From NCBI GenBank assembly GCA_017557425.1, contig JAFYYU010000011.1:1-64000 (forward strand): a DNA stretch of 64,000 nucleotides. The letters run 5' to 3'. The position numbers were made by a program, and so were the translations under genes. A model generated the notes under the pieces. The model had not been told where the DNA came from, made no database searches, and saw nothing but the letters and a program-made list of their open reading frames with translations. Source of the stretch: Muribaculaceae bacterium (GTDB taxonomy: Bacteria > Bacteroidota > Bacteroidia > Bacteroidales > Muribaculaceae). Of the stretch, positions 28,000 through 50,975 are shown piece by piece (positions within the stretch are counted from its first letter, which is position 1; each line of letters opens with the position of its first letter).

Positions 28000-28749
28000 T
28001 TAAAGCAGTTGGGCGATGGTGTCCCTGACGCGCCGTGCGGTGGTGTTGTCCAGAGCGGCCTCGTTGGCGCCTGGCCGGCCCATATAGAGGTTGGGATTCA
28101 CATATTGCATGGCGCTAGGCTGCTGCTCACGGCCTGAAAAATGGAACTCGTTCAGCCCTGTTTTATCACGCAATTCGCGGATGTTCTGCTCGGTCACGCC
28201 ACTACCCGCCATGAGGATGATGCGGCCTGCTGCCTGGCGGTTGAGCTTTGCCAGCAGGTCAGCACCTTGGATGGCCTTGGGTTGCTGGCCCGAAGTGAGT
28301 ATGCGATCAAAACCCAGGTCGATGACGGTTTCCAACGCCTGCTCGGGGTTGACAGCGCGGTCAAAAGCGCGGTGCATCGTCACGCTCATCCCCTTGCTGC
28401 ACTCCATCAGGTAACGGTTCTTTTCCACGTCAATTGTGCCGTCGGCATTCAAGCAGCCGAACACGACGCCGTCAACACCCAAATTACGGCACACGGCGAT
28501 ATCGGCCGCCATGCGCTCCACCTCCAGGTCAGTATAGAGGAAATCGCCTCCACGAGGGCGGATAATCACATGCAGGCGCGTCGTTGTCAACACTCGGCGT
28601 GCCACCTTGATTTCGCCATAACTGGGCGTCGTGCCGCCTTCGGGGATGCCCGCACACAACTCCACGCGGTCAGCGCCACCCTCTTGTGCGGCAATGCAGG
28701 ATTCTACTCCATTGGCGCACACTTCAACCATAAAATCCTCTCGTCTCAT
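28000..28749 (-). CDS. cutC: CutC-family protein
   Basis: Cytosolic TIM-barrel protein of 249 residues, historically named copper homeostasis protein CutC. Features: VEVCANGVESCIAAQEGGAD, RVELCAGIPEGGTTPSYG, the conserved HVIIRPRGGDFLYTD, VTMHRAFDR and ILTSGQQPKA. A copper role is poorly supported for most bacterial members. Here its start is three bases after the stop of a phosphodiester glycosidase gene, making it the last gene of the glycan locus and suggesting a metabolic role connected with sugars (inference). Confidence 0.9.
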   Translation of the reverse strand: MRREDFMVEVCANGVESCIAAQEGGADRVELCAGIPEGGTTPSYGEIKVARRVLTTTRLHVIIRPRGGDFLYTDLEVERMAADIAVCRNLGVDGVVFGCLNADGTIDVEKNRYLMECSKGMSVTMHRAFDRAVNPEQALETVIDLGFDRILTSGQQPKAIQGADLLAKLNRQAAGRIILMAGSGVTEQNIRELRDKTGLNEFHFSGREQQPSAMQYVNPNLYMGRPGANEAALDNTTARRVRDTIAQLL

Positions 28750-28752
28750 CAG

Positions 28753-30396
28753 TTATTTATTCAGAATGATATCGATGACATCAGTTACATCACCGATGTT
28801 GACTCTTCCGTCACTGTTGACATCTGCGGCCGAGTTGCTGGGCAGGCCACCCAAAATGATGTCGATGAGGTCTGTGACATCAAAAATATTGACCTCGTCG
28901 TCGCCGTTCACGTCGCCCTTCAACGGCGACTTGAAGATGGTAGCATGTTGAGCGGCCGTAATGCCATTGTAAGCCACATACAGATTGCCCGATGCGGCTT
29001 CGGATGCCGAATGGAACGTGCCGTCATCGTCAAATGATCCCAACTGGGGGTCACAGGAGAATACACACCCCGACAAACCCTTAGTCTTGAGGACACCATA
29101 CTGGTTATATCCCCATACCCCGAATGACGTTGTAGTTGATGACGGGAGGCTATAGCAACCCGGCTCAAACCCGATGATGCTGATTTGGTCATCGACGGGA
29201 GCAGTGGATATCAACAAACATCCATTGGCCACTGGACGCACCTGGCCGTCACTAGGGCTGTTGATGACCTCATCGTTAACCACCATGCACGATGAGCCGC
29301 CACCATCCAGATTCATGGCGTTGGCTGCGCCAAGGGCAACGAAGATGCCCATCATATCCTTGAGCGTGGCACCTATCGAGATATCCTGGCGTCCGTCCAC
29401 CACAACGAAGTAGAGTCGCGTGGTATCGGCATTAAAACCGACCGCCGTACGGGGGTGCAGCTCATTCCAGTCGTCCACGAATTCGCCATTCTGCATGATG
29501 ATGTCGCCACTGCCACCGATGAGTTGATGGATTTTCACATCGCCCGGCACATTGTTGAACTCAAGTTTGAAACTGACTGAAAGTTCATCGCCTTTACTCA
29601 TTGTGGCGGCATGTTCGGCGAATGTGCCCTTGAGCCACAGGATAGCCTTGCCGTCCGGTATCGACTTCAAGCCCTTGGCATCGAAAACCGAATCCACCAC
29701 GCATTGCTCCACACCATTGGGTTTCCATTGAAACGGTCCTTCGGCAGGGCGCAGCTGCACCATTTTACCCGATGTCGAATAATAATAGGTCGTGGGGCCA
29801 AAAGCGTTAGTGAACAGAACAGACTGATTATCAGCAATCGCCTCATTGTAATAACGCAAACGGTTCACCAGATTGAGGGAGAAAACGTCATCACCACAGG
29901 TAATCTGACCTGTGAACTTCAACCGGTCAAAATAAGGATGCTGATTGTCGTCCATCAAGAAGCAGACACAATTGTGGGTACTCTCCAACATTTCGCCATT
30001 AGTGACCTGTCCACTCAATGGGATACCTATCTCATAGATTGGCGATGTCATGAAAAAATCCCCATTAAACGCCGCCACCACCTCATGACCTGGGCTTGTG
30101 TTGCGTGTCGCCATGTGGACAGGAGTCTCAACGCCCCATGAATTGCCGGAGCCCATACAGGTTTCCATCACGATGTAGGGATTGGTCATGTCGATCTCGG
30201 TCACACACACCTTGAGCGGTAAAGCAGGGATGTCAAACTTGGCCGAAGTCACGCCCGGTCCCACCAAATGCGGGAAAATGAGCGTATCCACGTCATAGGC
30301 CTGGTCCCGGATGACCCACTGGTCACGTGCGCTGACTGAAGAAGTGCCCAGAATGACCGCAACGAGCAGAGCTAACAATAAACGATAACTTTTCAT
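28753..30396 (-). CDS. Phosphodiester glycosidase (NAGPA-like) with dockerin pair
   Basis: 547 residues from the ATG at 30394-30396 (MKSYRLLLALLVAVILG, signal peptide). Residues about 80-400 match the phosphodiester glycosidase family related to human uncovering enzyme NAGPA, which hydrolyses GlcNAc-1-phosphodiesters: AAFNGDFFMTSP, PRTAVGFNADTTRLYFVVVD and the family signature AMNLDGGGSSCMV. A short beta segment follows, then a dockerin pair (GDVNGDDEVNIFDVTDLID; ADVNSDGRVNIGDVTDVID). It begins two bases after the stop of a longer paralogue and is followed three bases later by cutC. Secreted to periplasm or cell surface. Substrate unproven. Confidence 0.88.
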   Translation of the reverse strand: MKSYRLLLALLVAVILGTSSVSARDQWVIRDQAYDVDTLIFPHLVGPGVTSAKFDIPALPLKVCVTEIDMTNPYIVMETCMGSGNSWGVETPVHMATRNTSPGHEVVAAFNGDFFMTSPIYEIGIPLSGQVTNGEMLESTHNCVCFLMDDNQHPYFDRLKFTGQITCGDDVFSLNLVNRLRYYNEAIADNQSVLFTNAFGPTTYYYSTSGKMVQLRPAEGPFQWKPNGVEQCVVDSVFDAKGLKSIPDGKAILWLKGTFAEHAATMSKGDELSVSFKLEFNNVPGDVKIHQLIGGSGDIIMQNGEFVDDWNELHPRTAVGFNADTTRLYFVVVDGRQDISIGATLKDMMGIFVALGAANAMNLDGGGSSCMVVNDEVINSPSDGQVRPVANGCLLISTAPVDDQISIIGFEPGCYSLPSSTTTSFGVWGYNQYGVLKTKGLSGCVFSCDPQLGSFDDDGTFHSASEAASGNLYVAYNGITAAQHATIFKSPLKGDVNGDDEVNIFDVTDLIDIILGGLPSNSAADVNSDGRVNIGDVTDVIDIILNK

Positions 30397-30398
30397 GT

Positions 30399-32762
30399 TC
30401 AATTCAGGATGATGTCGATGACGGCATTGACATCGGCGATGTTGACCTCGGTATCACCATTCACGTCACCATTGGGCAGCGTGTTACCGGTTAGTATCAT
30501 GTCGATGATGGCGTTGACGTCGGCAATGTTGACCTCGCCGTCACCGTTCACGTCGCCCTTGAGTGCCTCTTCTTGAGGCATATTGGCATAGACGAGTTCC
30601 ATGCCTGGAATCTTGAGGCTGTACTGCTCTCCTGAGGTAACAGTGTTGAAGGTGAAGTAGTAATATACCAAATGCAAGGGGAAGTTTCCTAAGTCGGCTG
30701 CGTCACAGATATCTGTCACGGGGACGTCAATCACGATCATCTCCTCGTCGCCAGCGTTTTCGATGGGATATTCGATCTGAACACGCTCACCATAGGCTGT
30801 CTCAACGAGATATTTGATGGTTTTGAATTGGATGCCGCCGGGATTCATGCGCAAGCGCAGCGTATCGGGCAAGCCCCACATCTGCACAGACTTGGCAATC
30901 TTGATATAAGGGTTGCGGGACGAAGCGCCCGTGAAATCGATTTGAAGGCCGTTATCAAGCGCTGACCACTCACAGGATTTGCCACCGCTCATAGTGACAG
31001 CCCAAGTGTCAGGATCAAGGGGAGCATTCTCGACGGTGGTCACCCGTGCCTTGGGGTTCTCGACCCTTACCAGCAGTGAGTCGGCCAGCAACGGATGGCT
31101 GGAGCCCACAAAAGTCTGCCCGTCGGCCACTGCTGTAATAATGCCTTGTTCATCAACTACACAGACACTCTCGTCAGAGGAAGTCCATGCAACCACACTA
31201 GGGTCCACCTTGTCCAACCCGTAACCGCTAATGCCATTAATATTGATGGCATAGTTGTGATACTGGTCAATGACAACGCTGTCGCTCACCAGCTGCCACT
31301 GCGCTTCCATAATGGTGACAGGCTGGGAAGCGGTAATACCATTGTAGGACACATACAGATTGCCCGAAGCCGGCGTAGAAACCGCATGGAAAAAGCCCTC
31401 ATCATCGAAGTAACCCACCTGGGGGTCGCACGAGAAAGAGCAGCCCTGCAGGTCGCGCGTCTTCAAGACGCCATACTGGTTATAGCCCCAGACATCAAAG
31501 GCTGTCGTTGCCGAAATAGACAAATTGTAGCACCGTGGCTCAAAGTTGATGATACCGATCTCGTCATCCTCGGGAGCAATCGATACCAGCAGGCAGCCAT
31601 TGCCCACGGCACGTACCGGTCCGTCGCTGGGATGATTCAGGACCTCGTCGTTGGCCAAGATGCATGACGAACCACCGCCATCCAGGTTCACCGCCGTAAC
31701 GGCGCCCAAGGCATCAAAAATACCCTTAAACTCCTTAAGCGTAACGCCGACCGAAGTCATGTGTCGCCCGTCAACAACGACAAAATAGAGGCGCGTGCTG
31801 TCGGCATTAAAGCCGATGGCAGTGCGGGGATGTCGCTCGGCCCAGTCCTCCATGAACTCACCATTTTTCATGATGATGTGGTTGCTGCCGCCAATGAGTT
31901 GGTGGATATTCACGTCGTTGGGGCCATTGTTGAGCGTCAGGGTGAAACTGATGTCCAGTTCATCACCCACGTTCATCCATGACGTCTGGTTGGCATAGGT
32001 GCCCTTGAGCCACAAGATAGCCTTCCCGTCAGGTATCGTTGTCGAACCCTTGGCGTCAAAAATATCCTCAATAACACACCGCTCAACGCCATTAGCCTTC
32101 CAACTGAAAGGCTCGCCGACAGGGCGCAGCAGGACCATCTTGCCGGAACTGGAGCCGTCATAGGTCACAGGACCATAGCTGCGGGTGAACAGGAAAGACT
32201 GGTTGGTCGCGATGTTCTCATAGGCGTAACGCATGCGGTTCACCAGATTGAGCGCAAACGAATGCTCACCGCTGGTGACACGGCCACTAAAAGTCAAGCG
32301 GTCGATATAGGGCCTGTTTTCATCATCCAGCACCAGACATGCGCGATTGTGGCTGCTGAGTACCAACTCGTCGTTGCGCACCTGTCCGCTCAGGGGCAAG
32401 CCCACCTCGTTGGTGGGCGAAGTCATAAAGAAGTCGCCATTGAGGGCACTCACCACCTCATGTCCGGGCCGCGTGTTGCGCGTCGCCATGCTCACCGGCG
32501 TCTCGCAGGCCACCGATTTCTCGCCTCCCAAGCAGGTTTCCATGACGATGTAAGGATTGGTCAAGTCCATCTCCACCACGCTCACCTTGAGCGGCAGTGC
32601 CGGGATGTCGTATTTGGCAGCCGTCACGCCCGGACCCGCCAGATGCGGGAAAATAAGCGTGTCCACCTCATAGGCTTTGTCGCCGATGGTCCACGTGTCA
32701 CGGGACCAGCCCGTGACGGCCATCAGCGACAAAGATATCGCTAATACTAACAGCCGTTTCAT
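30399..32762 (-). CDS. Phosphodiester glycosidase (NAGPA-like) with extra beta domains and dockerin pair
   Basis: 787-residue secreted paralogue of the downstream gene; the N-terminal ~400 residues are closely similar (GDKAYEVDTLIFPHLAGPGV; ALNGDFFMTSP; VNLDGGGSSCILA). Between the catalytic part and the dockerins it has about 240 additional residues: a Big_2-like Ig domain (VVAWTSSDESVCVVDEQG) and a galactose-binding-like beta-sandwich. The dockerin pair is GDVNGDGEVNIADVNAIID and GDVNGDTEVNIADVNAVID (coded at about 30402-30560). Its ATG overlaps the stop of the upstream gene by four bases. The signal peptide is LLVLAISLSLMAVTGWS. Confidence 0.88.
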   Translation of the reverse strand: MKRLLVLAISLSLMAVTGWSRDTWTIGDKAYEVDTLIFPHLAGPGVTAAKYDIPALPLKVSVVEMDLTNPYIVMETCLGGEKSVACETPVSMATRNTRPGHEVVSALNGDFFMTSPTNEVGLPLSGQVRNDELVLSSHNRACLVLDDENRPYIDRLTFSGRVTSGEHSFALNLVNRMRYAYENIATNQSFLFTRSYGPVTYDGSSSGKMVLLRPVGEPFSWKANGVERCVIEDIFDAKGSTTIPDGKAILWLKGTYANQTSWMNVGDELDISFTLTLNNGPNDVNIHQLIGGSNHIIMKNGEFMEDWAERHPRTAIGFNADSTRLYFVVVDGRHMTSVGVTLKEFKGIFDALGAVTAVNLDGGGSSCILANDEVLNHPSDGPVRAVGNGCLLVSIAPEDDEIGIINFEPRCYNLSISATTAFDVWGYNQYGVLKTRDLQGCSFSCDPQVGYFDDEGFFHAVSTPASGNLYVSYNGITASQPVTIMEAQWQLVSDSVVIDQYHNYAININGISGYGLDKVDPSVVAWTSSDESVCVVDEQGIITAVADGQTFVGSSHPLLADSLLVRVENPKARVTTVENAPLDPDTWAVTMSGGKSCEWSALDNGLQIDFTGASSRNPYIKIAKSVQMWGLPDTLRLRMNPGGIQFKTIKYLVETAYGERVQIEYPIENAGDEEMIVIDVPVTDICDAADLGNFPLHLVYYYFTFNTVTSGEQYSLKIPGMELVYANMPQEEALKGDVNGDGEVNIADVNAIIDMILTGNTLPNGDVNGDTEVNIADVNAVIDIILN

Positions 32763-34147
32763 GACCGCAAGATTATGTCGATCACGGCATTGACGTCAGC
32801 GATATTCACCTCGCTGTCGCCGTTCACGTCACCCGCCTCGTCGTTGCGTCCTGTCAAAATCATGTCGATAATGGCATTCACATCGGCGATGTTCACCTCG
32901 CCGTCACCGTTCACGTCGCCGGGGATGACAGGCTGCGGCTGTTCGCCAGCGTCCACATTGCGCCCGATCTTATAGACCGCCATACCGTTATACGCTTTGA
33001 ACGTCAACAGGGTCACTTCCTCATAACCCTCATCGTCAACGCCATATTCCACGGCGAAGCAATGCACGCGCAAACCGCTGTCGTTGACCTTGCCCAGACT
33101 GTCGGCGGGAATCTTCCAGTACTTGGTCATGCCACCCAGTGACATGCCTTCGCCCAGTTCACAGATGTTGGCCTGGCAACCGTAGCCACCGCCATTCATG
33201 TCGGCGATTACATACACGAGGAAGTCACGGTCATCGAGTTTGAACTCCACACAGCCGTTGGGCGTTGCCTTGGGCCATAAAGCAGGATCCGTATCCTCAA
33301 ACGAGTCGATTACCGAACCCGTGAAGTCATAAATCACAGGGGCCGTGTCAAAGCAGTCGATATAGAACATCTCGCCGCTGTAGCGGGACTCTTCGTCGGG
33401 ACCCTCAATCATCTTGATGACCGGTGCAAGCGAGAAGCCGGTTTTGGTCTCGGGATAGAAATTGATGACGTCCATATAGGGATCACCGTCAAAGCCGCCC
33501 TCCCAGTCACCGCCTTGGTCAGCGTGCATGCGGTACAACGTCGGGAAGCCCGGGTCGGCGGTAGAGCCAGACACGGTCATGATGTTGCACTCGGCCTCCT
33601 CACGCGTGAGGTCACCGATGACGTCGAGATAGTCGGTGCGCTGCGGGGCATCGCCCTTGTCAAGCTCAACAATCAGGGTAAGTTCACCGGTCTCGGTATT
33701 CACCATATAAACAGGCACAAATTGCTGTGCCGTACTGGTCATTGGAGCCACCCAGATGTGATGGAAGTTATCTTTGCCGATGCTTGCCACTCCCAGGAAT
33801 CGTGTATAGGGTTCACCGTCGAGTGTCAAGGGCAGGTCGGGCAATGGACTGCCGTCAACGGCCGAGAAACGGTGAATAATCGACTGTGCGATGGTGTCAT
33901 TGCCAATGATGACGGGCTCCTCGCTACGGGCAACATAGACAATGCACTGGTCCATCGTCGCCGTGCGTGCGCGTTGGTTGCAGATGGCATTATCGGTGTA
34001 AGCCGTGCCGCTGTGCACGCGGTCAAAAATCCACTTGTTGACAATCTTGATGCCGTTAACCTCGGGGTAGGTCTGGCCATCGGTTCCCGCAAAAGCAGCC
34101 AGGGCTGCCGTAAACAGGAATACTAAAAGAAGATAGTTCTTTTTCAT
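32759..34147 (-). CDS. Secreted protein of unknown function, propeller-like, with dockerin pair
   Basis: 462 residues with signal peptide (YLLLVFLFTAALAAFA). The body (about 20-400) is built of short beta-rich repeats with Asp/Gly turns (for example HADQGGDWEGGFDGDPYMDV and DDRDFLVYVIADMNGGGYG) and looks like a beta-propeller, but I cannot assign a family or an active site. The C-terminus is a dockerin pair. It is a paralogue of the neighbouring 34271-35662 protein; motifs such as CELGEGMSLGGM and YGVDDEG and NGMAVYKIG are shared. A binding or sensor module for the locus glycan is possible. It overlaps the next gene by four bases. Confidence 0.75.
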   Translation of the reverse strand: MKKNYLLLVFLFTAALAAFAGTDGQTYPEVNGIKIVNKWIFDRVHSGTAYTDNAICNQRARTATMDQCIVYVARSEEPVIIGNDTIAQSIIHRFSAVDGSPLPDLPLTLDGEPYTRFLGVASIGKDNFHHIWVAPMTSTAQQFVPVYMVNTETGELTLIVELDKGDAPQRTDYLDVIGDLTREEAECNIMTVSGSTADPGFPTLYRMHADQGGDWEGGFDGDPYMDVINFYPETKTGFSLAPVIKMIEGPDEESRYSGEMFYIDCFDTAPVIYDFTGSVIDSFEDTDPALWPKATPNGCVEFKLDDRDFLVYVIADMNGGGYGCQANICELGEGMSLGGMTKYWKIPADSLGKVNDSGLRVHCFAVEYGVDDEGYEEVTLLTFKAYNGMAVYKIGRNVDAGEQPQPVIPGDVNGDGEVNIADVNAIIDMILTGRNDEAGDVNGDSEVNIADVNAVIDIILRS

Positions 34148-34270
34148 TATTTGAAAGTTTTATATGGGTTTTAAATCTTAAAAAATTGCGGATTGACGCG
34201 GATGTGGTTTTTCACGCTCCGTGCAATCCGCAACTATGAATTTCAGTGTATTCCCTTAGGGGGATTGTTA

Positions 34271-35662: not shown

Positions 35663-35776
35663 AATTGATTGATTGTTAAATTGTTACGTATATTTCTACT
35701 TTTTATTTCATTAATAAGATAGCAAAGTAAAACAAAAAATCGCAAATGTCAAAATTTAGACTTCAGTTTTTAGACT

Positions 35777-37195: not shown

Positions 37196-37207
37196 ATCAG
37201 TTTTCCT

Positions 37208-39772: not shown

Positions 39773-39776
39773 ATCA

Positions 39777-41507: not shown

Positions 41508-41522
41508 CTTTCCTTCAGGTTT

Positions 41523-42569: not shown

Positions 42570-42578
42570 ATTCTATTT

Positions 42579-42609
42579 TAGTTTTTAGTTTCTAGTCCCT
42601 AGTTTTTAG
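42579..42609. repeat. 7-bp tandem repeat in the spacer after SusD
   Basis: On the + strand TAG recurs every seven bases at 42579, 42586, 42593, 42600 and 42607. On the transcribed (-) strand the units are CTAAAAA, CTAGGGA, CTAGAAA, CTAAAAA, CTAAAAT, starting at the SusD stop codon. Confidence 0.85.
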
Positions 42610-44528
42610 TTCTCTTGGGTCAACGAGGTGACTTCGCCATACTCGTGAGCCCAAATCATAGGCACCTGAAGCCACTTGTAGTTCTTGTAGGCTCCCAAAC
42701 GCTCGAGTTCCTGACGGTTGTACTTCTCCTCAGTCTCGGGGTCATAGTTGATGCGCTGGAGCCACGTGTTCTCTTTCTGCTCCTCGGTCAAACCGTCAAT
42801 CCAGTAGGCTGCATACAGGTTATAGGGCCTGCGCAGGGTGGGATAGACGATTTCCTGGTTGTCACCGATGCCGTAGTGGTTGCGGTTGTTACTGTAGTGG
42901 TAACGGCGCATATCGGTCCACTGCTCAGGCTGCAGGTACATGGCGATGTACTTCTGCTGCATCAGGTCACTCAGCGTGAACTCGCTGGGATTGAAGAACC
43001 AGTGCTTGTTACCGCGGTTTGTCACCTTGTCAACAGCAGGCTTGCTGCTCGTGCCACGGAAGTAGTCCTCATTGTCGAGGAAAGCGGTAACCTGTGCGAA
43101 CCAGTACTCAGCAGGCTGGTAACCAGGCTTGCCGCCGGCAACCGAGTTGCCGGGATACTTGTTATCAGTGCTTTCATTGTAATTCTCATTGGGATAGAGG
43201 CGCAGGAAAGCGGCAAGGTGGCGCTGGATATTCCACTGGGTGGCCTCCTTGGCCAGTGCGCACGCCTCAGTCTTGTTGCCTAACCAGTACTCAGCCTCGG
43301 CCTTGATGAAGTAGAGTTCCTCCATCGTGAAAATGGGATTGTAGGCATCGGCAGCGCCGGCATAAGCGCCCATATACAGGTTGGGATAGTTGGCAATCTT
43401 GTAGGATGTACCCATACCGATGTTGTTTTCCAGATAACGCATCTTGATGCGCTCACTGGTTACCGAGGCACTGGCAGGTCCCGTACGGGCAATCATAAGC
43501 AGACCGCAACGCGGGTCGTTGGCAAAGCCGTCGTGAGCACCCTCGGCGTTGAACATACCGCAGGTCATCTCGTTGTCGGGCTTGCTGATACCCATCAGGT
43601 CCACCATGAAGAACTTGCTCGGGATAGCGCTACCCAAGAGGTTACCGCGCGACTCCCAAGAGTTGATGACGGGCTGTGCCACGCTCCATACAGCGTTCTG
43701 TGTACCCGTTCCACCGTCCCAATAGTAGCGGGGCTCGTTGCCGAACCAAGCGTCACGACCGCCCTGATAGTCAAACACGTCGCCCTTGCGCCACTGGTTG
43801 ATGGCGGCATCGGCTGCAGCAATGATCTTCTGGCACATGGCCGGGCTGCGGTCAACATTGGGGATGTTGCGCAGCAACAGGCGGGCCTTGACAGCATACA
43901 CCAGACCTTTCCACTTCTCCAGGTCACCGCCGTAAACGCGGTCTTCCTTGGCAGTCAGCGGTTGATTGTCCGGATTGTTAATGATCTCGGGATCCTCATA
44001 CATGGCGATAAGGTCATCGCACTCCTGCATCATCCAGGCGTAAACCGAAGCCTGGGTGTCATAGGTGGGAGCGATGCTCTGGTAGGCCTCACTGCGAGGC
44101 ATATCGCCAAAGGCATCGGTCGTCAACTGAGTGGACATCAGCATGATGGTGCGGCCTATCAGCTCATAGTTGGGCGAGTTGATGGCCTTGGAGTTGTTCA
44201 CCAGGTTAACGGTGTTCTTGCCGATATCATAGAAATGACGGCGCCACATCGGGTGACGGTTCATCGTCAGCATCTCCCACTCGCACTTGTAGCTGTAGGC
44301 ACCCACCGAGCTCTTGCCGCCCGTGGTCAGCATCTGGGAGAAGTAGGCATAATATTCACTGTGGTCATAGACAATCTGCTGCGCATAATAAATGATGACG
44401 GGCAGACCATCCTTGGCTTCAATCGCATGGGCCCTGTCGGGGTTGACGTTGTCATCGAGGATATCGTTACAACTTACCGACACCAGGCCAACCAGCATTA
44501 ACAATGCTAAAAATTTAATCTTTTTCAT
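42606..44528 (-). CDS. SusD/RagB-family outer-membrane nutrient-binding lipoprotein
   Basis: 640-residue lipoprotein (MLVGLVSVSC lipobox, Cys20). It matches the SusD-like family with TPR-like helices: NTVNLVNNSKAINSPNYELI, GDMPRSEAYQSIAPTYDTQA, YFIKAEAEYWLGNK and the C-terminal NPSEFTLSDLMQQKYIAMYL. It lies on the lid of the SusC pore and delivers oligosaccharide. The gap to SusC is 14 bases. Its subfamily is the one annotated SusD/RagB nutrient-binding lipoprotein with longer C-terminus. Substrate not decidable. Confidence 0.95.
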   Translation of the reverse strand: MKKIKFLALLMLVGLVSVSCNDILDDNVNPDRAHAIEAKDGLPVIIYYAQQIVYDHSEYYAYFSQMLTTGGKSSVGAYSYKCEWEMLTMNRHPMWRRHFYDIGKNTVNLVNNSKAINSPNYELIGRTIMLMSTQLTTDAFGDMPRSEAYQSIAPTYDTQASVYAWMMQECDDLIAMYEDPEIINNPDNQPLTAKEDRVYGGDLEKWKGLVYAVKARLLLRNIPNVDRSPAMCQKIIAAADAAINQWRKGDVFDYQGGRDAWFGNEPRYYWDGGTGTQNAVWSVAQPVINSWESRGNLLGSAIPSKFFMVDLMGISKPDNEMTCGMFNAEGAHDGFANDPRCGLLMIARTGPASASVTSERIKMRYLENNIGMGTSYKIANYPNLYMGAYAGAADAYNPIFTMEELYFIKAEAEYWLGNKTEACALAKEATQWNIQRHLAAFLRLYPNENYNESTDNKYPGNSVAGGKPGYQPAEYWFAQVTAFLDNEDYFRGTSSKPAVDKVTNRGNKHWFFNPSEFTLSDLMQQKYIAMYLQPEQWTDMRRYHYSNNRNHYGIGDNQEIVYPTLRRPYNLYAAYWIDGLTEEQKENTWLQRINYDPETEEKYNRQELERLGAYKNYKWLQVPMIWAHEYGEVTSLTQEN

Positions 44529-44542
44529 AGTTCAGTCGGCCT

Positions 44543-47500
44543 TTAGAATGTTGCTTTAAGCGTGAAATTGAAACTGCGTGTGCTGGGCACATTGTAATTG
44601 TCGATACCAGCACCACCCGTACCACCTGATGTCGATGCCAGTACAGCGGGGTCATTACCGCGGTACTTGGTCAACAGCAGCAGGTTGCGCGCCGTGGCAG
44701 TAAGCGACAAACCCTTGATGGGCCAAGTGCGCTTGAAGTGCTTGCCGAAGTCATAACTCAGCGTCACATAACTCAAGCGGATATAGGAACCGTCCTCGAT
44801 AAAGTTGGACGAAACAGTAGCATAGTAGGTATTGATAAAGTAGGAGTCAAGCACAATGGGCGTGGTATTCTTGACATAGGTCGTAGTCCCGTCAGGACCG
44901 GGAACCGCCTGCACACCATCGATGATGTACTCACGGTTGCGGTACTTGTCGTACAGGCTGCTCATACCATTGGTGATCTGGCTGCGGCCGGTGACGTTAA
45001 CCACATCACCGCCCTTGCGGCCGTCGAACAGGAACGACAAGGTAGCGGCCTTGTATCGCAACGTGCTGCCGATACCCAGCAGCCAGTCGGGCTCGCGGTT
45101 ACCGATGTAAAGGCCCTTGGCGGCGTTGATGATGGGATAACCGTTCTCGTCGCAGACGATATGGCCGTCCGGGTCACGCACATAGTCCTTACCGGAGATA
45201 CCTGTCGAGGACTCACCCAGGCGTGCAACGGGGAAGATGTCGCCATACTGGGTACCCTGGATCTCGGTGATGTCGTTGGGCAAGTAGAGCACCTTGCTGC
45301 GGTTGAACGAGAAGTTGGCAAACGCACTCCATGAGAAATCGGTCGCCTTGATCAGATCCTGGTTCAACGAGATTTCCATACCGTGGTTCTCCAAACTACC
45401 CTCGTTACGGGTCTGGAGAATGGTACCTGAAGCGGGCGACACACGCACACTCACGATCTGGTTATCGACCGTGGTCGAGTAATAGGCGATGTCGAGGCGC
45501 GTCCAGTTATGGAAGAAGCGCAGGTCAGCACCGATCTCCCACGACTTGGTCATCTCAGGCTCGAGGTCCACAGCACGCGATGTGGTGGGATCCACACCGT
45601 AGCCGCCGTCGGGGAACAAGGTCCACTGCTTGTAGGTGTCGGTAAACAGGTAGCGCGGGCTATCCTTACCTACCTTTGCCCAGTTGCCACGCAACTTGCC
45701 GTAGCTGAACCAGTCGTTGCTCAGGTTGAACAACTCACTGAAGATGACACCTGCAGTAATTGAGGGATAGAAGTAGTTGGTCTTGGAGGCCTGCTTGAAG
45801 GCTGATGAACCGTCCATACGGCCCGTTACCGACAACTGCGCCATGCCCTTATAGTCAAACCTGAGTTCACCGAAGTGTCCATACTTGTTGTACTTGCTGT
45901 GATACAGGGTGGGATGGTTGCTGATGAGCAGGTCGCCGTTGGTGAAGTCTGTGTTGTTGAAACTGTAGAATTCACCACCCAACTGGAAGTGCTCATTATA
46001 AATGGAGGATTCCAGACCCTTGGTCTCCTTGAACTCCAGACCATAGAGGGCGCTTACCGTGTAGTCCTCGGCAAAGGTGTGCTGATAGGTGGCAAGGAAC
46101 TGCATGTTCAGCAAGGCGCCACGCGAGGGCTGGAAGCTGTATGAACCGTAACGGTCCTGCATATCAGACAGCTTGGTCTGAACATCATCGGCCGTGGGAT
46201 CAACCAGGTCGCCGTCATACAGGCGGGGGATGGTGTAGGAATCATACATCGAGTAACTCTTGTCATAACCCATCTTGCCGGTAAATACCAGGTTCTTGAT
46301 GGGCTCGTAGCTGATCTGCCCGTTGATGACGAAACGGTTGCCCTCGGTCTGACTCCAGTCCATGTAGCGGCCGAAGTAAGGAGAAACAGCGCCATTGATG
46401 CGCTCGGTATCAAGCAGGTTCTCCCAGTGGTCATAATAGGCCCACCAGTTCACGTGACCCTCGAGTGTGCGGTAGTCACTCATGTCCTTGTTGATACCCC
46501 AGTTATAGATGGTGGACATCGAGTTACCGAAGCCACGGCTCGTGCGGTTCATGAAGTTTGCGCTCAACTGAACGGTCACCTTGTCGCTGGGCTTGTAGGT
46601 ACCCTTGAGCAAGAGGTTGATCTGTTTGCGGTAATCCTTGGGAACGATACCCTGATTGTCAGTGTAGGAAACCGAAGCATACGACGAGAACTTCTCGGTT
46701 CCGCCGCTCACGCTCACGTCATACTTCTGCATCAGGCCCGTCTTGAGGAAGTTGCGCAGGTTGTCATAATAGGTATCGTTCTCGCTCATGTAGGGGCCCC
46801 AGCCGCCGCTGCCCATATTCTCCTTGTACATACCCTTGGCACCGGGAATGAAGGTGCTCTGGATCATGGGCAAGCGATAGGGCGTGTTGATCTCCAACGA
46901 AGCGGAAGCCGACACGGTGATTTCGCCGCTCTTGCCGCCACTCTTTGTGGTAATCATGATGACACCGTTGGCACCTTCCTGACCATAGAGTGCCGATGCG
47001 GCAGCACCTTTCAGGACGGTGATGTTCTCGATGTCATTGGGGTTAAGGTCGGCCAGCGTCGAGGCACCACCTCGGATGGCCATACCGTCAACAATCATCA
47101 GCGGCTCGTTGCTCTGCGAGTTGTTCATCGAAGAGATGGCACGGATGATGACCTGGGTCGATGAGTTGGGCGAACTACCGCCGGTGCTTACCTGAAGACC
47201 GGCAATCTTACCCTGCAACGAGTTGGCGAAGTTGGTAGAGCCGCCAGCGGTCACCTGTTCCTCGTCAAGGGACTGAACAGCAAAGTTCAGTTTCTTTTTC
47301 TCTTGGGTCTGGCCCATGGCGGTCACCACGACCTCACCCAGCACTTGGGCGTTCTCGTCAAGAACGATGTTGACCTCGGTTTGTCCCGGGCCAATCTTCA
47401 CGCTCTTGGGATTCATGCCCACGTAGCTCACGTCGAGCACGTCGCCGTCGTTAGCCTCAATCGAGAAACGGCCGTCAAAGTCGGTCGCCGTGCCGCGCGT

Positions 47501-47638
47501 CGTGCCGTGCACCTTGACCGACGCGCCGATAATCGGCTCGCCGTCGCTCGACTGTGTGACGACACCTGTCACCACGCGGGCTATGCCCGGCAGCGACAAG
47601 AGGCTCAACAGCAGCAGCAATAGTAACTGTTTTCTCAT
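44543..47638 (-). CDS. SusC/RagA-family TonB-linked outer-membrane transporter
   Basis: 1031 residues. Signal peptide 1-20; carboxypeptidase-regulatory-like domain about 21-100 (VVTGVVTQSSDGEPIIGAS); plug domain about 115-235 with the usual SusC motif (LKGAAASALYGQEGANGV, IMITTKSGG); 22-stranded barrel to the terminal Phe (SFNFTLKATF). There is no N-terminal signalling extension (STN), so it is probably not coupled to an ECF anti-sigma factor. Imports oligosaccharide with TonB. First gene of the SusCD operon; promoter-like TAAGTTTG at 47702-47709. Confidence 0.97.
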   Translation of the reverse strand: MRKQLLLLLLLSLLSLPGIARVVTGVVTQSSDGEPIIGASVKVHGTTRGTATDFDGRFSIEANDGDVLDVSYVGMNPKSVKIGPGQTEVNIVLDENAQVLGEVVVTAMGQTQEKKKLNFAVQSLDEEQVTAGGSTNFANSLQGKIAGLQVSTGGSSPNSSTQVIIRAISSMNNSQSNEPLMIVDGMAIRGGASTLADLNPNDIENITVLKGAAASALYGQEGANGVIMITTKSGGKSGEITVSASASLEINTPYRLPMIQSTFIPGAKGMYKENMGSGGWGPYMSENDTYYDNLRNFLKTGLMQKYDVSVSGGTEKFSSYASVSYTDNQGIVPKDYRKQINLLLKGTYKPSDKVTVQLSANFMNRTSRGFGNSMSTIYNWGINKDMSDYRTLEGHVNWWAYYDHWENLLDTERINGAVSPYFGRYMDWSQTEGNRFVINGQISYEPIKNLVFTGKMGYDKSYSMYDSYTIPRLYDGDLVDPTADDVQTKLSDMQDRYGSYSFQPSRGALLNMQFLATYQHTFAEDYTVSALYGLEFKETKGLESSIYNEHFQLGGEFYSFNNTDFTNGDLLISNHPTLYHSKYNKYGHFGELRFDYKGMAQLSVTGRMDGSSAFKQASKTNYFYPSITAGVIFSELFNLSNDWFSYGKLRGNWAKVGKDSPRYLFTDTYKQWTLFPDGGYGVDPTTSRAVDLEPEMTKSWEIGADLRFFHNWTRLDIAYYSTTVDNQIVSVRVSPASGTILQTRNEGSLENHGMEISLNQDLIKATDFSWSAFANFSFNRSKVLYLPNDITEIQGTQYGDIFPVARLGESSTGISGKDYVRDPDGHIVCDENGYPIINAAKGLYIGNREPDWLLGIGSTLRYKAATLSFLFDGRKGGDVVNVTGRSQITNGMSSLYDKYRNREYIIDGVQAVPGPDGTTTYVKNTTPIVLDSYFINTYYATVSSNFIEDGSYIRLSYVTLSYDFGKHFKRTWPIKGLSLTATARNLLLLTKYRGNDPAVLASTSGGTGGAGIDNYNVPSTRSFNFTLKATF

Positions 47639-47701
47639 TATTAAAATAGGTTTATTGATTAGGAATTATTATATATCAAAAGTGATTTCACGTTCAAACT
47701 A

Positions 47702-47709
47702 CAAACTTA
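47702..47709 (-). promoter_or_regulatory. Promoter-like -7 element for susC
   Basis: TAAGTTTG on the - strand, about 64 bases before the ATG. A 6-bp inverted repeat CAGTGT/ACACTG (47740-47756) lies upstream and could be a regulator site. Confidence 0.5.
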
Positions 47710-47816
47710 CACATTATTTTTTAATCATTAAACCAATCGCAGTGTTTTTAACACTGAAAATCCCATTATTTTTATTTTAACAACAAATTTTCAAGATTTT
47801 TCACAATAATAACAAC

Positions 47817-47870
47817 AAAAAATCGGAGTTCTCAGAGTACTCTGAGAGCTTCGAGAACTCCGAGAGCTCC
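47817..47870 (-). terminator. Palindromic 9-bp array acting as terminator after the GH20 gene
   Basis: Five units with GAG every nine bases (47826, 47835, 47844, 47853, 47862), each close to GAGnnCTCn and self-complementary. On the - strand the array folds (for example CGGAGTTCTC with GAGAACTCCG, and a 16-bp palindrome at 47831-47846) and is followed by GATTTTTTG. It lies 23 bases after the GH20 stop codon. Confidence 0.8.
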
Positions 47871-47892
47871 AATATTCAATAATCCGATATAG

Positions 47893-50370
47893 TTACTTGA
47901 AGAGGTAGGTCGTCACGCTCTCATGGCCCAGATAGAAAGTCTTGGCCTTGATGACCTGGGGCTGGTTCTTGACGGGCACGGGATTTGTCCAGCGGGGCGA
48001 GTCGATGGTAGGCTCGCTGCCGTCGAGGGTATAAGTCACCATTTCATCGGGATATTGGGTGTTGATGTGCAACATGCCGTCAACGAGCTTGATGCCCGGA
48101 GGTCCCACACGGAAGTTGTAACCCATGCTGCGCAACAGCGGCAACTCCCGGGTGCCGATTTTGAGGTTATACTGGTGGCGGGCCTCGTTATAGGCCTTGG
48201 TGTCGGTCAAGTCCTTGCTCCACTCGGGCATCGCGGTCCAAGCCCTCTCGCTCACGCCCATCATCTTGGGCAGCAACAGGTACTGTACCTCGTCAAAGCT
48301 GCGCAGGGTCTCGCCCCACAGCTGTGCCTGGATGCCGATGATGTTCTCGGGCTTTTCCAGCTTAGCCTTGCCATCGCCAGCAGTGGTGATGTTGAGGGGA
48401 GTGCCGTCAACGGCCGTGCGGGCACTGGCATAGATGTTGGCAGGCAGGCCGCTCCAGGCGTCAAACTCATCGACCTTGCCGCCCCAGTGCAATCCCTGCT
48501 CATTCTGGTGCCAGCTGTAACCCATATCCATGTAGAAGTTGGTCACATTGGACAGGATGACGGGATAGCCGTCATTGGCCAAGCGATAAGGCACATCACT
48601 GCGCGAACCCACGGTGCTCCAAGCGTTCACACCGGCCACACGGGGAGTCATAACGGCATTGAATTCGGGCTTGTGGTCAAGGGCCACTTCCTGCCATCCC
48701 TCGATGCGGATTTTGCGTGCAGCAAGCAGGTCACTGATGCGCCTGATGTAGTATTCACTTACCTCGTGCTGCGTCTTGAGGCCCTCGCGCTGCATGAGCG
48801 CCTGCACGTCGGGGCTCTTGGACCAGGCGTTGTTGGGCACCTCGTCGCCGCCCAGGTGGACGGTCTCAAGCTTCAGGCCGGCTCCCTTGTACATCTTCTG
48901 CAACTCCTCCACCACGCGGTCGATAAAGCGGTAAACGTCGTCACTGGCGACATTCAGCACGTTGTCGTGGTAGCTTTGGGCAGAGGTGAAGACACTCTCG
49001 TTCTTGTCGTCCCACAGGCGGAACTGCTCGGCCGTCGGGTTGTTCATGGCGCGGTTCTTCATCGCCACGATAGCGGCACGGGCATGGCCGGGCGTCTCGA
49101 TCTCGGGGATGATGCGCACGCCGTGGGCACGGGCATACTTCAACAGGTCGATGAACTCAGCACGAGTGAAATAGCCGTTGGCGCACTGTGACGGGTCGTC
49201 GGGGTTACCGTTGCCGTCAAAAATTTGTGCCAGATAGCCTTTCTCGTCGAGGGTAGCGCCGCGGCGGGCAGCCACCTGGGTTAACTCGGGGAATCCGGGG
49301 ATTTCCAGTCGCCAAGCCTCGTCGTCGGTGAAATGGAACTGGATGGTATTGATCTTGTAGTAGGACAAGAGGTCGATCATGCGCTTATAGTCATTAGGCT
49401 TGATGACGAAGTTGCGGGCGATGTCGAGCATCACGCCACGGTAGCCAAAGTCGGGCCAGTCGATGACGAAGCAGTTCTGCAGGCGGTGTCCCTTGCTGTG
49501 GTCGAGGGCTGCAATGAGTGTCTTGATGCCGTTCATCAACGCCGCTTGGGTGACGCCGTGGATGGAAATCTTGCCGTCATGCACACGCAGGGTGTAGTAC
49601 TCGCCGTTGGTGCTCATCTTCTTGTCGAGCAGCAATTCGATGACGGTGTTTTGCCCACTGGACACATACACGCCGCGTTTCTTCAACTCATCGGTGAGCA
49701 AGGCCTTGGCGCGGCGGTAACCACCCCACTGGAACCACTTTCCCGACTTTATGGACACCAGACTGCCCACCTGTGTAAAACCGTCCTCGATGTCCACCTG
49801 CTTGGGGGCGGGGAAGATGTCGTAGTCATTGCCCGTATAGCCGTCTCCAAAGCCGTTGATGGCCTCGTTGTAGGCATACATGTAGTTGCCGTCGGGATAG
49901 GCCTTGTGGTCACGCCACTGGCCAGGCTTGTCCAGCGGTGAACGCTTGATTTTGACGGCAATGGGTTTGGTCATGTCGCCACCCAGCACCACATGGCCAC
50001 CATTAGGCATGTAATTCTTGTTGATGACAGCTCCGCCCATCGTCATCTCCACCACCAGCGAGTCGCCGGCAGCCAGCGGCTTGTAGTTGGCATTGGGTTT
50101 GATGCGGTAATAGGTCGTGGAAACCTCTTCAACATCTACAGGACAACCGGCGGGCACGCTCACCGAACGGGAGAACTGGTTGAAAAAGAACTGCCAGTCA
50201 TCGGCCAACGGGTGCTTGGAAATGTTCTTGATGACAAAGCGCGAACTGTAGTTGTTCGCCGTGGTGTTGTTCTGTCCCATGTGCCAGTCCACGGCGATGG
50301 GAGACTGTGCGCCCATCGTCAAGGCAACGACAGCAAGGGCCATAGTAGTCAATAACTTGATTTTTTTCAT
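47893..50370 (-). CDS. GH20 beta-N-acetylhexosaminidase
   Basis: 825 residues, signal peptide LLTTMALAVVALTMGAQ. A CHB_HEX-like N-terminal domain (about 20-155, VDWHMGQNNTTANNY), a Glyco_hydro_20b domain (about 190-300), the GH20 barrel (about 305-680) with catalytic HLGGDEVPNNAW (Asp-Glu pair) and IPEIETPGHARA, and a C-terminal chitobiase-type domain (TLDGSEPTIDSPRW). It removes terminal GlcNAc or GalNAc from glycans in the periplasm or at the surface. The LMW phosphatase gene ends two bases upstream, so they are cotranscribed; a terminator divides it from SusC. Confidence 0.96.
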   Translation of the reverse strand: MKKIKLLTTMALAVVALTMGAQSPIAVDWHMGQNNTTANNYSSRFVIKNISKHPLADDWQFFFNQFSRSVSVPAGCPVDVEEVSTTYYRIKPNANYKPLAAGDSLVVEMTMGGAVINKNYMPNGGHVVLGGDMTKPIAVKIKRSPLDKPGQWRDHKAYPDGNYMYAYNEAINGFGDGYTGNDYDIFPAPKQVDIEDGFTQVGSLVSIKSGKWFQWGGYRRAKALLTDELKKRGVYVSSGQNTVIELLLDKKMSTNGEYYTLRVHDGKISIHGVTQAALMNGIKTLIAALDHSKGHRLQNCFVIDWPDFGYRGVMLDIARNFVIKPNDYKRMIDLLSYYKINTIQFHFTDDEAWRLEIPGFPELTQVAARRGATLDEKGYLAQIFDGNGNPDDPSQCANGYFTRAEFIDLLKYARAHGVRIIPEIETPGHARAAIVAMKNRAMNNPTAEQFRLWDDKNESVFTSAQSYHDNVLNVASDDVYRFIDRVVEELQKMYKGAGLKLETVHLGGDEVPNNAWSKSPDVQALMQREGLKTQHEVSEYYIRRISDLLAARKIRIEGWQEVALDHKPEFNAVMTPRVAGVNAWSTVGSRSDVPYRLANDGYPVILSNVTNFYMDMGYSWHQNEQGLHWGGKVDEFDAWSGLPANIYASARTAVDGTPLNITTAGDGKAKLEKPENIIGIQAQLWGETLRSFDEVQYLLLPKMMGVSERAWTAMPEWSKDLTDTKAYNEARHQYNLKIGTRELPLLRSMGYNFRVGPPGIKLVDGMLHINTQYPDEMVTYTLDGSEPTIDSPRWTNPVPVKNQPQVIKAKTFYLGHESVTTYLFK

Positions 50371-50372
50371 TT

Positions 50373-50867
50373 CTATATGTTGTTTTGTTCTATTATTCGG
50401 TTTAACAGGTTGTCGCAGGCATCCTCCAGCAGGTCAAGCACGAGCTCAAAGCCCTCGCTGCCCTCATAGTAGGGGTCGGGCACGTAGTCATAGTTGGGAT
50501 ACCGGCGGATGTAGTCACCCATCATCACAACCTTGTCCTGCTGCTCGATGGTCGCAGCCATGGAGCACAGGTCATCCACATTGGCGGCATCCATGCCCAC
50601 GATGAGGTCAAAGTCCTCAAAATCAGCCGAGTGCACCTTGCGTGCCCGATGGGTCAATTCATACCCTCTAGGGCGGGCATGGACCCTCATACGCTTGTCC
50701 GGCAAGTCACCGATGTGCCAGCCGCCAATTCCCGCCGAGTCGATGAAGAAACGGTCAGTCAAGCCCCGCTCGTCCACCATGCGCTGCATTACCGCTTGGG
50801 CTGCCGGTGACCTGCAAATGTTACCGAGGCAAATGAAAAGCACGCTGTATTTCGTTGATTCCGTCAT
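50373..50867 (-). CDS. Low-molecular-weight protein-tyrosine phosphatase
   Basis: 164 residues from the ATG at 50865-50867 (MTESTKYSVLFICLGNICRS); a TTG four codons upstream is less likely. The P-loop CLGNICRS (CX5R) is near the N-terminus, with the general acid Asp in DYVPDPYY. Dephosphorylates tyrosine on proteins, often capsule-related kinases; the partner is unknown. Cytosolic. It is the first gene of the LMW-PTP-GH20 unit and divergent from the DUF5715 gene. Confidence 0.95.
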   Translation of the reverse strand: MTESTKYSVLFICLGNICRSPAAQAVMQRMVDERGLTDRFFIDSAGIGGWHIGDLPDKRMRVHARPRGYELTHRARKVHSADFEDFDLIVGMDAANVDDLCSMAATIEQQDKVVMMGDYIRRYPNYDYVPDPYYEGSEGFELVLDLLEDACDNLLNRIIEQNNI

Positions 50868-50938
50868 TTGAAGGCGCAATATTACAAAAAAAGTGGGAAT
50901 TTTGAATACTAGATGGGCGGTTTTTCGTTATTTATATG

Positions 50939-50946: not shown

Positions 50947-50975
50947 CTTTTTCAAAACGTGATATAACCACAAAG

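Follow-up and report, generated by a model that had tools for sequence, protein, structure and literature searches.

A conserved SusCD locus directed probably at the bacterial cell wall lies in the window, the whole stretch of 64,000 nucleotides from a Muribaculaceae bacterium that was analyzed. As judged by comparison of loci, what is conserved in it comprises SusC and SusD, a pair of lipoproteins, GHL10, a propeller-like protein and NAGPA, to which a CotH kinase is a genus-level addition. At the level of sequence, a dockerin replaces the type IX secretion (T9SS) sorting domain in homologous proteins of this one locus.

Gene content and organization of the locus

In the ORF list of the window, 13 ORFs lie on one strand (-), from LMW-PTP (50373-50879) through CutC (28000-28749):

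50373..50879 (-): LMW protein tyrosine phosphatase, cytosolic; LMWPc 139 bits; genus-level neighbour
47893..50370 (-): GH20 beta-hexosaminidase, signal peptide, without dockerin; Glyco_hydro_20 286 bits; genus-level neighbour
44543..47638 (-): SusC-type TonB-dependent transporter, core; Pfam Plug, CarbopepD_reg_2 and TonB barrel
42606..44528 (-): SusD-like lipoprotein, core; SusD-like_2 73 bits
41523..42569 (-): unknown-fold lipoprotein, core, lipobox TASC; homologues at the same locus position
39777..41507 (-): PKD lipoprotein, core; PKD_4 57 bits
37208..39772 (-): GHL10, core; GHL10 186 bits, C-terminal dockerin 37217-37366 (Dockerin_1 31 bits)
35777..37195 (-): lipoprotein resembling CotH kinases, accessory at genus level; complete CotH domain, 180 bits
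34271..35662 (-): propA, propeller-like, secreted, core family; dockerin 34283-34435 (Dockerin_1)
32759..34147 (-): propB, propA paralogue (59% identical); dockerin 32771-32923 (Dockerin_1)
30399..32762 (-): NAGPA1, phosphodiester glycosidase domain, core; NAGPA 98.9 bits, C-terminal dockerin 30408-30560 (Dockerin_1)
28753..30402 (-): NAGPA2, the other phosphodiester glycosidase, with 60% identity to NAGPA1; NAGPA 112 bits, dockerin 28768-28920
28000..28749 (-): CutC family cytosolic protein; CutC 232 bits; genus-level neighbour

The gene content given in the first-pass annotation was largely borne out, since LMWPc, GH20, the SusC-type receptor, SusD-like_2, PKD, GHL10, CotH, both NAGPA domains and CutC all scored above the Pfam cut-offs. 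The term "propeller" for propA and propB was without Pfam support, the sole Pfam match of both being the dockerin. The dockerins had been overlooked; they are of type I, above the Pfam cut-off and C-terminal on GHL10, propA, propB, NAGPA1 and NAGPA2. The gaps, described as tiny, measured -4 to +36 bp in nine of 12 cases, but three were wider, namely 114 bp between CotH and propA, 123 bp between propA and propB, and 254 bp between GH20 and SusC. The last of these contained three promoter-like matches on the coding strand, so the thirteen genes need not form one transcript; across the region such matches numbered 23 against 12.9 expected (by consensus only in both cases). The gene order is not due to chance, because the same order was found in dozens of loci. 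The description of the region as a SusCD nutrient locus was upheld: the SusC and SusD homologues are adjacent, and lipoproteins lie in one run with the glycan-active enzymes GHL10, NAGPA and GH20 (lipoboxes were judged by eye and surface exposure is predicted). No amidase, NamZ, AmpG or MurNAc kinase was present in the window locus.

Conservation of the core and position of CotH

The comparison set consisted of 44 loci from named contigs and 8 from other genomes. Genus-level counts were confined to those of the 40 loci L044-L083 in which GHL10 and propA are both whole (32 loci), and 30 of these were genus-like, a term that denotes GHL10 identity of at least 70% and is an identity rule, not taxonomy. 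The core was kept in eight distant genomes from six families, among them one same-family genome whose stretch (L127) shows SusC to GHL10 only. In other Bacteroidales families it occurred without CotH, GH20, LMW-PTP or CutC within the stretches seen, and GH20, LMW-PTP and CutC had no match in any of the 13 loci that were examined from outside the genus, namely the eight distant ones and L074, L075, L076, L082 and L083. CutC was found in 26 of the 30 genus-like loci, and a NAGPA2-type copy in only two. GH20 stood upstream of SusC, together with LMW-PTP, in all five genus stretches showing more than 1 kb there, a count that excludes L163 (which ends within SusC) and L164 (671 bp upstream shown, no GH20 match).

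The SusD-like protein was 90-94% identical across seven genus stretches. Homologues of the PKD lipoprotein, which probably binds glycan at the surface, were 36-42% identical in seven order-level loci and 47% identical in one same-family genome. The unknown-fold lipoprotein had homologues of 22-30% identity at the same position in seven order-level loci, and gave no Pfam match and no PDB match even by profile. Homologues of propA were also present at order-level loci.

The CotH domain of the window was complete (positions 1-322 of 322, E 1.2e-52, Pfam), with a lipobox-type N-terminus and no dockerin; a phmmer search against the PDB gave no match. In the accessible part of PMC7821199, D228 and D251 are named as the catalytic aspartates of Bacillus subtilis CotH. 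CotH was present in 26 of the 30 genus-like loci (L058 being counted as positive, though CotH follows NAGPA1 there) and in none of the 13 loci outside the genus. The first-pass annotation had presented the pairing of the CotH kinase with phosphodiester glycosidases as the system itself, and had named absence of the neighbourhood from every related genome as the observation that would count against it. The neighbourhood was found in relatives, and the locus stands; the same relatives, through their CotH absences, ruled out the pairing of kinase and phosphodiesterase as the core. It is also very improbable that a secreted CotH kinase and the phosphodiester glycosidases jointly act on sugar phosphates. 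The position of CotH inside the run in most genus-like loci, where it stems from at least two well-supported lineages in the tree, indicates that it is often retained, but it was missing from four of these loci and from all 13 examined outside the genus. In addition, CotH is multi-copy in the genome of the window (14 matches, including duplicates at contig ends), and none of the other copies was near a NAGPA match.

Among 52 distinct CotH sequences (BLAST score of at least 200), 24 carried a lipobox, 26 a dockerin and two both, a near-perfect exclusion in the 2 x 2 table. The tree, for which L054 (dockerin visible) and L105 (dockerin cut by the locus end) were relabelled by hand, showed one single switch, and the exclusion was dropped as independent proof of tethering.

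Dockerins at the place of T9SS sorting domains

In genus g138, represented by two genomes (G404 and G648), GHL10, the propeller-like protein and NAGPA end in T9SS sorting domains. TIGR04183 scored above the cut-off in eight of nine relatives' proteins scanned. Of five proteins scanned from the same family, three scored above it, each of them from G005, and two gave no match. NAGPA1, the only window protein scanned with NCBIfam, had no TIGR04183 match, and all five secreted core proteins of the window end in a dockerin. When NAGPA1 was aligned with homologues whose tails are of the T9SS type, the alignment stopped 7-10 residues before the dockerin in six of eight cases, whereas with dockerin-bearing homologues it reached the end. 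GHL10 alignments ended anywhere from 70 residues before to 38 residues after the dockerin start. SprA was detected in 50 of 50 genomes, including that of the window (E 6.3e-184, 2502-aa frame).

Dockerins numbered 29 to more than 100 per genome in all 14 genus genomes, whereas 28 of the 29 remaining members of the family had 0-3; up to about 102 candidates were scored per genome, so that the highest counts are lower limits. Sorting domains were also few in some family members that have one dockerin or none (G026, two; G009, four; G007, five). The genome of the window gave 125 dockerin matches, some of them duplicates at contig ends. Among the best 30 by score, two of which were such duplicates, the dockerin was C-terminal in 27 of 29 judgeable cases.

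Cohesins of the same genome

The dockerins may tether the enzymes to surface cohesins. By Pfam, the genome of the window gave two cohesin matches at E up to 1, one of them above the cut-off, and a cohesin above the cut-off was found in 9 of 50 genomes, dockerin-poor genomes included. The same genome has divergent modules which Pfam misses; the profile they belong to has cohesins as its best PDB matches. There were at most two cohesins per protein among the stretches of this genome that were read (about 5% of it), and at least four in tandem in G060, a genus genome.

At least one cohesin protein of this genome appears to have a tail of the family type. The C-terminus of L172 matched a profile of NAGPA/CotH tails from other genera, built on four sequences picked by eye, at E 6.8e-6. 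Two other cohesin proteins matched at 0.033 (L139, from G187) and, weakly, at 0.15 (L173:8490-10601, of the same genome as L172); these three headed the ranking, ahead of every decoy (the best of which reached 1.3), and a third LRR-cohesin protein of the genome (L173:10768-12732) was absent from the match list. The classification of the cohesin proteins as TIGR04183-type T9SS cargo was rejected, as no NCBIfam TIGR04183 match was found on the tails, and a profile built from distant locus tails scored them no better than decoys.

The scarcity of detectable cohesins would also suit dockerins that are leftovers or calcium-binding end caps, on enzymes that are soluble or periplasmic. We consider this unlikely, given the extreme C-terminal position of the dockerins, their high number in every genus genome and the existence of the cohesins that Pfam misses.

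The cell wall as probable target

GHL10 is predicted to be a peptidoglycan lytic transglycosylase of the Cwp19 family. It matched the Cwp19 structure 5oq2 at E 6.7e-58 and kept eight of the 11 pocket residues checked, although the alignment falls short of F367 and S368. The changes were Q77H, S250G and G328S; G328S was common to all ten GHL10 homologues compared, Q77H was shared only with L076 and L127, and S250G only with L076. Cwp19 itself is described as a lytic transglycosylase in the accessible text of PMC6016235. The NAGPA domain of NAGPA1 carries the motifs HPRT...G and NLDGGGS, which aligned with 3ohg and 6ozd, and the PDB matches included 6pku and 6pkg, whose chains are named as the animal enzyme.

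An Amidase_3 gene accompanied the core in seven of seven loci outside the family of the window. In g138 the same-strand run goes on with a MurNAc/GlcNAc-type kinase (E 2e-115 against 8oqk for that of G404), SpoIID (tested in G648), an AmpG-family permease and NamZ. This extended MurNAc-recovery run is limited to one genus and counts as one event. The first-pass annotation had proposed an amino-sugar polymer with phosphodiester links; within that proposal the best fit is the teichoic-acid-like option, given that in relatives this core is associated with enzymes for peptidoglycan.

The same surface locus might serve another polymer (capsule, exopolysaccharide, phosphomannan or mucin-type glycan), if GHL10 and NAGPA are poly-specific and the amidases beside the loci of distant relatives point to a different local use. 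Loci for host glycans often contain GH20, the substrate of NAGPA in animals is GlcNAc-P-Man, and in the lineage of the window the locus lacks an amidase. Moreover, another GHL10 protein, DogH, is reported as active on starch in the available part of PMC9967864. However, the constant presence of Amidase_3 in the other families and the MurNAc-recovery genes of g138 speak against such a target, which we regard as doubtful.

The closest solved chain to SusC was BT_2264 (5fq6_B, E 9.8e-92), which we take to be a peptide importer. Sequence comparison gave no match between the complex of BT_2264 and either of the accessory lipoproteins, and a BT2261-2264-like importer was not adopted. A peptide import system is at odds with GHL10 and NAGPA, which are not peptidases. 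Recycling of the cell's own wall could be suggested by AmpG, which is part of the recycling cluster of Tannerella forsythia in the portion of PMC7670621 available, but surface-type tails, whether dockerin or T9SS domain, would be needless for periplasmic self-recycling. We hold peptide import or self-recycling to be improbable.

Discussion

We give roughly an even chance to the proposal that the locus encodes a surface utilization system for bacterial cell wall, in which the secreted enzymes are held by dockerins and not by T9SS sorting domains as in distant relatives. The substrate would be peptidoglycan carrying polymers attached via sugar-1-phosphodiesters. GHL10, going by its family, would cut the MurNAc-GlcNAc backbone, and NAGPA would remove GlcNAc-1-P-linked polymers, a step proposed because the wall-teichoic-acid linkage, GlcNAc-alpha-1-P-6-MurNAc, resembles the substrate of the human NAGPA-type enzyme, GlcNAc-alpha-1-P-6-Man. 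The two lipoproteins would bind the fragments, SusCD would import them, and GH20, in the periplasm, would trim GlcNAc. Each secreted core protein would dock by its dockerin, seen as a replacement in the sequence, on cohesin-bearing surface proteins. CotH, as a later genus-level addition, may phosphorylate surface proteins or glycans.

Only tentatively do we suggest a wider picture, in which a lineage of rumen Bacteroidota swapped T9SS sorting domains for dockerins on a large share of its surface enzymes and a few T9SS-exported cohesin proteins receive these dockerins. This would be a Gram-negative, T9SS-anchored, cellulosome-like surface, digesting bacterial walls through the conserved GHL10/NAGPA/amidase SusCD locus. 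A ruminant gut bacterium carrying the locus probably eats the cell walls of other bacteria.

Comparison with known systems

Like Bacteroidales polysaccharide-utilization loci, the locus has a SusC/SusD pair that forms one run with surface lipoproteins and enzymes acting on glycans. It differs in that its enzymes are dockerin-tagged and not lipidated, its predicted target is the bacterial wall, and no regulator of HTCS, ECF or AraC type was found among the 37 scanned window ORFs.

The peptidoglycan-recovery cluster of T. forsythia comprises AmpG, MurT, MurK and MurQ (PMC7670621, part of the text), and a title cited in PMC10465942 shows NamZ to be known for this species. In g138, genes for NamZ, a kinase and an AmpG-family permease stand next to the window-type core. 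However, the T. forsythia cluster is described, in the text available, with inner-membrane uptake, whereas here SusCD, GHL10 and NAGPA would carry out the steps at the surface and the outer membrane. The accessible T. forsythia literature on AmpG and MurNAc kinases names no outer-membrane importer. In a conserved SusCD locus that includes enzymes for peptidoglycan, cell-wall scavenging by Bacteroidales would gain a candidate for its outer-membrane step.

With Cwp19 of Clostridium difficile (PMC6016235, PMC5765458; excerpts), the window GHL10 shares its domain and eight of the 11 pocket residues checked, but three pocket residues differ and a dockerin stands where Cwp19 has cell-wall-binding repeats. 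The C-terminal type I dockerins and the cohesin modules of the same genome recall the cellulosome; the differences are a Gram-negative host with a T9SS, divergent cohesins and the low number of cohesins per protein, and no cellulose-binding scaffoldin was seen in the stretches of this genome that were read. By their tails, the relatives' GHL10, propeller-like protein and NAGPA are T9SS cargo, and the genome of the window has SprA, but the window proteins carry a dockerin at the place of the sorting domain.

In the parts of these sources available, cohesins and dockerins are listed in some rumen Bacteroidetes bins (PMC6071333), and one rumen Bacteroidetes genome is stated, as others of the phylum, to be without either (PMC5831590). 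Neither a GHL10/NAGPA SusCD locus nor a swap of dockerin for T9SS domain was found described in the accessible open-licence PMC literature. Dockerin-bearing proteins in loci of rumen Bacteroidetes are reported in PMC7480376, where, in the text available, the role of the dockerin is undefined; here it replaces a sorting domain in homologous proteins of one locus. This swap could explain the role of dockerins in this group and, with dockerin and T9SS domain at one place in homologues, turns the surface-attachment job of the dockerin into a simple experimental question.

Organization of the locus

The stretch from 28000 to 50879 was filled by 13 ORFs, all on one strand. Pfam bore out the gene names of the first-pass annotation, except that its two 'propeller-like' proteins (propA and propB) and the first lipoprotein had no family of their own. 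What it had observed was right, yet incomplete, because type I dockerins on five proteins had been overlooked. GHL10, propA, propB, and the phosphodiester glycosidases NAGPA1 and NAGPA2 each carried a C-terminal type I dockerin above the Pfam cut-off, and these dockerins are the most telling feature of the locus. As read by eye, lipobox-like signal peptides were present at the start of SusD, the unknown lipoprotein, the PKD protein, and CotH, and ordinary signal peptides were present on the five dockerin proteins and GH20. From this pattern of domains and signal peptides, the layout comprises an importer, surface lipoproteins, dockerin-tagged secreted proteins, GH20, and two cytosolic proteins; GH20 is probably periplasmic, and LMW-PTP and CutC are the predicted cytosolic pair. 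Other genes of the window were as follows.

15077-17206, minus strand: C10 (streptopain-type) peptidase with Spi inhibitor domain and C-terminal dockerin
17390-19768, minus strand: a second such peptidase, with the same domains
25315-27954, minus strand: a third such peptidase, with the same domains
50913-51731, plus strand: DUF5715 protein, divergent neighbour of LMW-PTP, placed likewise in five genus stretches; its HxxGxxxD-like motif we take to be reminiscent of M15-type peptidoglycan peptidases
56335-57870, plus strand: 511-aa protein whose sole Pfam match was a C-terminal dockerin

Conserved core and genus-level neighbours

The comparison used 44 loci obtained via NAGPA alignment, of which the first 40 were Bacteroidales by title, together with eight other-genus loci carrying the PKD lipoprotein. 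This lipoprotein was found in 9 of 393 Bacteroidales genomes, own genome counted (E ≤ 1e-30), which is a lower limit because the query was a single sequence. The MAGs behind the contigs with 74-88% identity to NAGPA1 bore the labels Muribaculaceae, Prevotellaceae, or Bacteroidales, and titles that told the source gave the rumen or another part of the ruminant gut; RUG in MAG names stands for rumen.

Seven loci from other families kept the order SusC, SusD, lipoprotein, and PKD lipoprotein, followed by GHL10 and NAGPA in either order; a propeller-like protein was often present, and NAGPA copies numbered up to three. Within the stretch seen, L127, from the same family, showed SusC to GHL10 only and then a GH31 gene. 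CotH, GH20, LMW-PTP, and CutC had no match in the fetched stretches of any of the eight other-genus loci (0.4-4.2 kb upstream of SusC seen) or in those of L074, L075, L076, L080, L082, and L083. Among 30 genus-like loci (GHL10 identity 70% or more; only loci with whole GHL10 and propA counted), CotH lay within the run in 26, the exceptions being L060, L061, L063, and L066, and a second, NAGPA2-type gene was present in two. LMW-PTP and GH20 were upstream of SusC in all five genus stretches showing more than 1 kb there (L165-L168 and L170), with one extra gene between in L167; in L164, outside these five, GH20 was unmatched in the 671 bp seen upstream of SusC. L079 held LMW-PTP, GH20, CotH, NAGPA2, and CutC while the remaining core was absent, so the core and flanks are separable.

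L058 was rearranged: one strand carried propA, propB, NAGPA1, and a dockerin CotH, and the opposite strand CutC, GHL10, PKD, lipoprotein, and SusD. In L167 (10859-12163; genome G164), one genus member, a SusE/SusF-like protein between SusC and GH20 had a near-N-terminal dockerin match just below the cut-off.

Dockerins in place of T9SS sorting domains

The GHL10, propeller, and NAGPA proteins of the distant core loci carried C-terminal T9SS type A sorting domains. The model TIGR04183 was above cut-off in 8 of the 9 relatives' proteins scanned, and the L131 propeller protein scored 20.5 of 23 bits; window NAGPA1 was unmatched. Within the same family, G005 had TIGR04183 on two NAGPA and one GHL10. 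It was missing from one G005 NAGPA and one G155 CotH homologue, which ended in another short tail, as did two G003 NAGPA (one cut by the stretch).

Against homologues with T9SS-type tails, the NAGPA1 alignment stopped 7-10 residues before the dockerin in six of eight cases (the remaining two stopped 77 and 83 residues before it), while the GHL10 alignments ended between 70 before and 38 after the dockerin start and the propeller alignments between 17 before and 18 after it. Against dockerin-bearing homologues (L076, L082), the alignments reached the protein end. Judged by these end points, the dockerin occupies the place of the T9SS sorting domain in the locus proteins. Dockerins in rumen Bacteroidetes PULs have been reported, their role being called undefined (PMC7480376, in part); among the open-licence PMC papers searched, none was found to describe homologous proteins in which a dockerin has taken over from a T9SS domain.

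SprA was present in all 50 genomes compared and in none of 14 control genomes, Bacteroides ihuae included. Each of the 14 genus genomes had from 29 to over 100 dockerins, the highest counts being lower limits; G001, another family member, had 31, the remaining 28 members of the family had 0-3, and the seven order-level core carriers had 0-1. TIGR04183 matches came to 6-17 in the genus, 2-87 elsewhere in the family, and 39-85 in the order-level carriers. However, G026, G009, and G007 also had few sorting domains but no dockerin expansion, so replacement is not proven by these counts alone. Among the best 30 of 125 own-genome dockerins, two of which were contig-end duplicates, 27 of the 29 judgeable were within 10 residues of the stop codon. 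The own-genome assembly was 2.58 Mb in 24 contigs and 85% complete; contig ends C1/C13, C9/C17, and C11/C19 gave identical matches, suggesting overlapping assembly ends, and thus its dockerin and CotH gene counts are slightly inflated.

Candidate cohesin partners

The own genome gave two Pfam cohesin matches at E up to 1, one of them above cut-off, and above-cut-off cohesins occurred in 9 of 50 genomes, inside and outside the genus. A profile built on two own-genome modules gave 29 domain matches in the loci examined, and when an alignment of 21 such modules was compared with the PDB, the first six matches were all cohesins (best E 7e-6). The own-genome cohesins were located in BspA-type LRR proteins with an internal dockerin, plus one small cohesin-dockerin protein. 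The ends of the LRR-cohesin proteins were not TIGR04183 domains and had decoy-like scores with the distant-tail profile. With the profile from four other-genus tails, the top three were L172 (E 6.8e-6), L139 (G187; 0.033), and L173 (0.15), and the best decoy was 1.3. That cohesin proteins keep a family-type tail, a putative T9SS signal, while their clients bear dockerins would fit, but thinly. Cohesins have been listed in some rumen Bacteroidetes bins (PMC6071333, in part). A genus relative carried at least four tandem cohesin modules in one protein, a candidate multi-cohesin scaffoldin (L142, G060:C11:74291-77653).

Anchoring of CotH

Of 52 CotH homologues, 24 had only a lipobox, 26 only a dockerin, and two both. 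A single anchor switch suffices on the CotH tree, which suggests a one-off event, not a repeated pattern. The locus CotHs were divided among at least two well-supported groups of the tree, with a third possible depending on a poorly supported fork, and the dockerin CotHs included paralogues from elsewhere in the genomes. This placement indicates that CotH either was recruited here more than once or was itself the source of paralogues elsewhere.

Predicted substrate

The locus had been interpreted as pairing a CotH kinase with phosphodiester glycosidases against an amino-sugar glycan with phosphodiester links, which was half right; its sequence is most likely that of a bacterial-cell-wall utilization system with dockerin-tagged secreted parts. 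The window GHL10 domain matched Cwp19, a peptidoglycan lytic transglycosylase (PMC6016235, in part), at E 6.7e-58. Of the 11 Cwp19 pocket residues (PMC5765458, in part) checkable in it, W36, W127, R132, D195, D196, Y197, Q295, and Y297 were retained, and the departures were Q77H, S250G, and G328S, the last of which recurred in each of the ten GHL10 homologues compared.

Each of the seven loci from other families had an Amidase_3 (N-acetylmuramoyl-L-alanine amidase) gene next to its core (L132, L133, L134, L156, L157, L158, and L131, whose gene runs on into L159). Six of the small genes ahead of it were PD40 by Pfam or linked to one another by BLAST; that of L132 itself had no Pfam match, and that of L133 matched the others in size. 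In G647, one additional gene separated the last NAGPA from this pair. However, the amidase was absent from the window locus itself, which counts against the cell-wall reading. Downstream of the core in L161 (3638-8750; G612) were a second gene that matched the amidase gene over partial length at 31% identity, and in which Pfam gave no Amidase_3 at E 1e-5, and a second PD40-like gene alongside.

Wall teichoic acid is linked through GlcNAc-alpha-1-P-6-MurNAc, and the animal NAGPA enzyme acts on GlcNAc-alpha-1-P-6-Man. Because the bond is of the same kind, NAGPA would have a natural place in cell-wall digestion.

In another genus (G404, G648), the same-strand run extended into genes for a kinase, a metallophosphoesterase, and SpoIID (G648), as well as NamZ (E 2e-88) and an AmpG-family permease whose TIGR00901 match (E about 1e-47) was under the curated cut-off of that model. 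Of the solved chains, 8oqk (E 2e-115) and 8oqw, both GlcNAc/MurNAc kinases, were nearest to the G404 kinase. NamZ enzymes of Tannerella forsythia are known from a title cited in PMC10465942, and, in the available parts of the sources, the peptidoglycan-recovery cluster of this species consists of AmpG, a MurNAc transporter, a kinase, and an etherase (PMC7670621), with a second kinase encoded upstream (PMC10465942).
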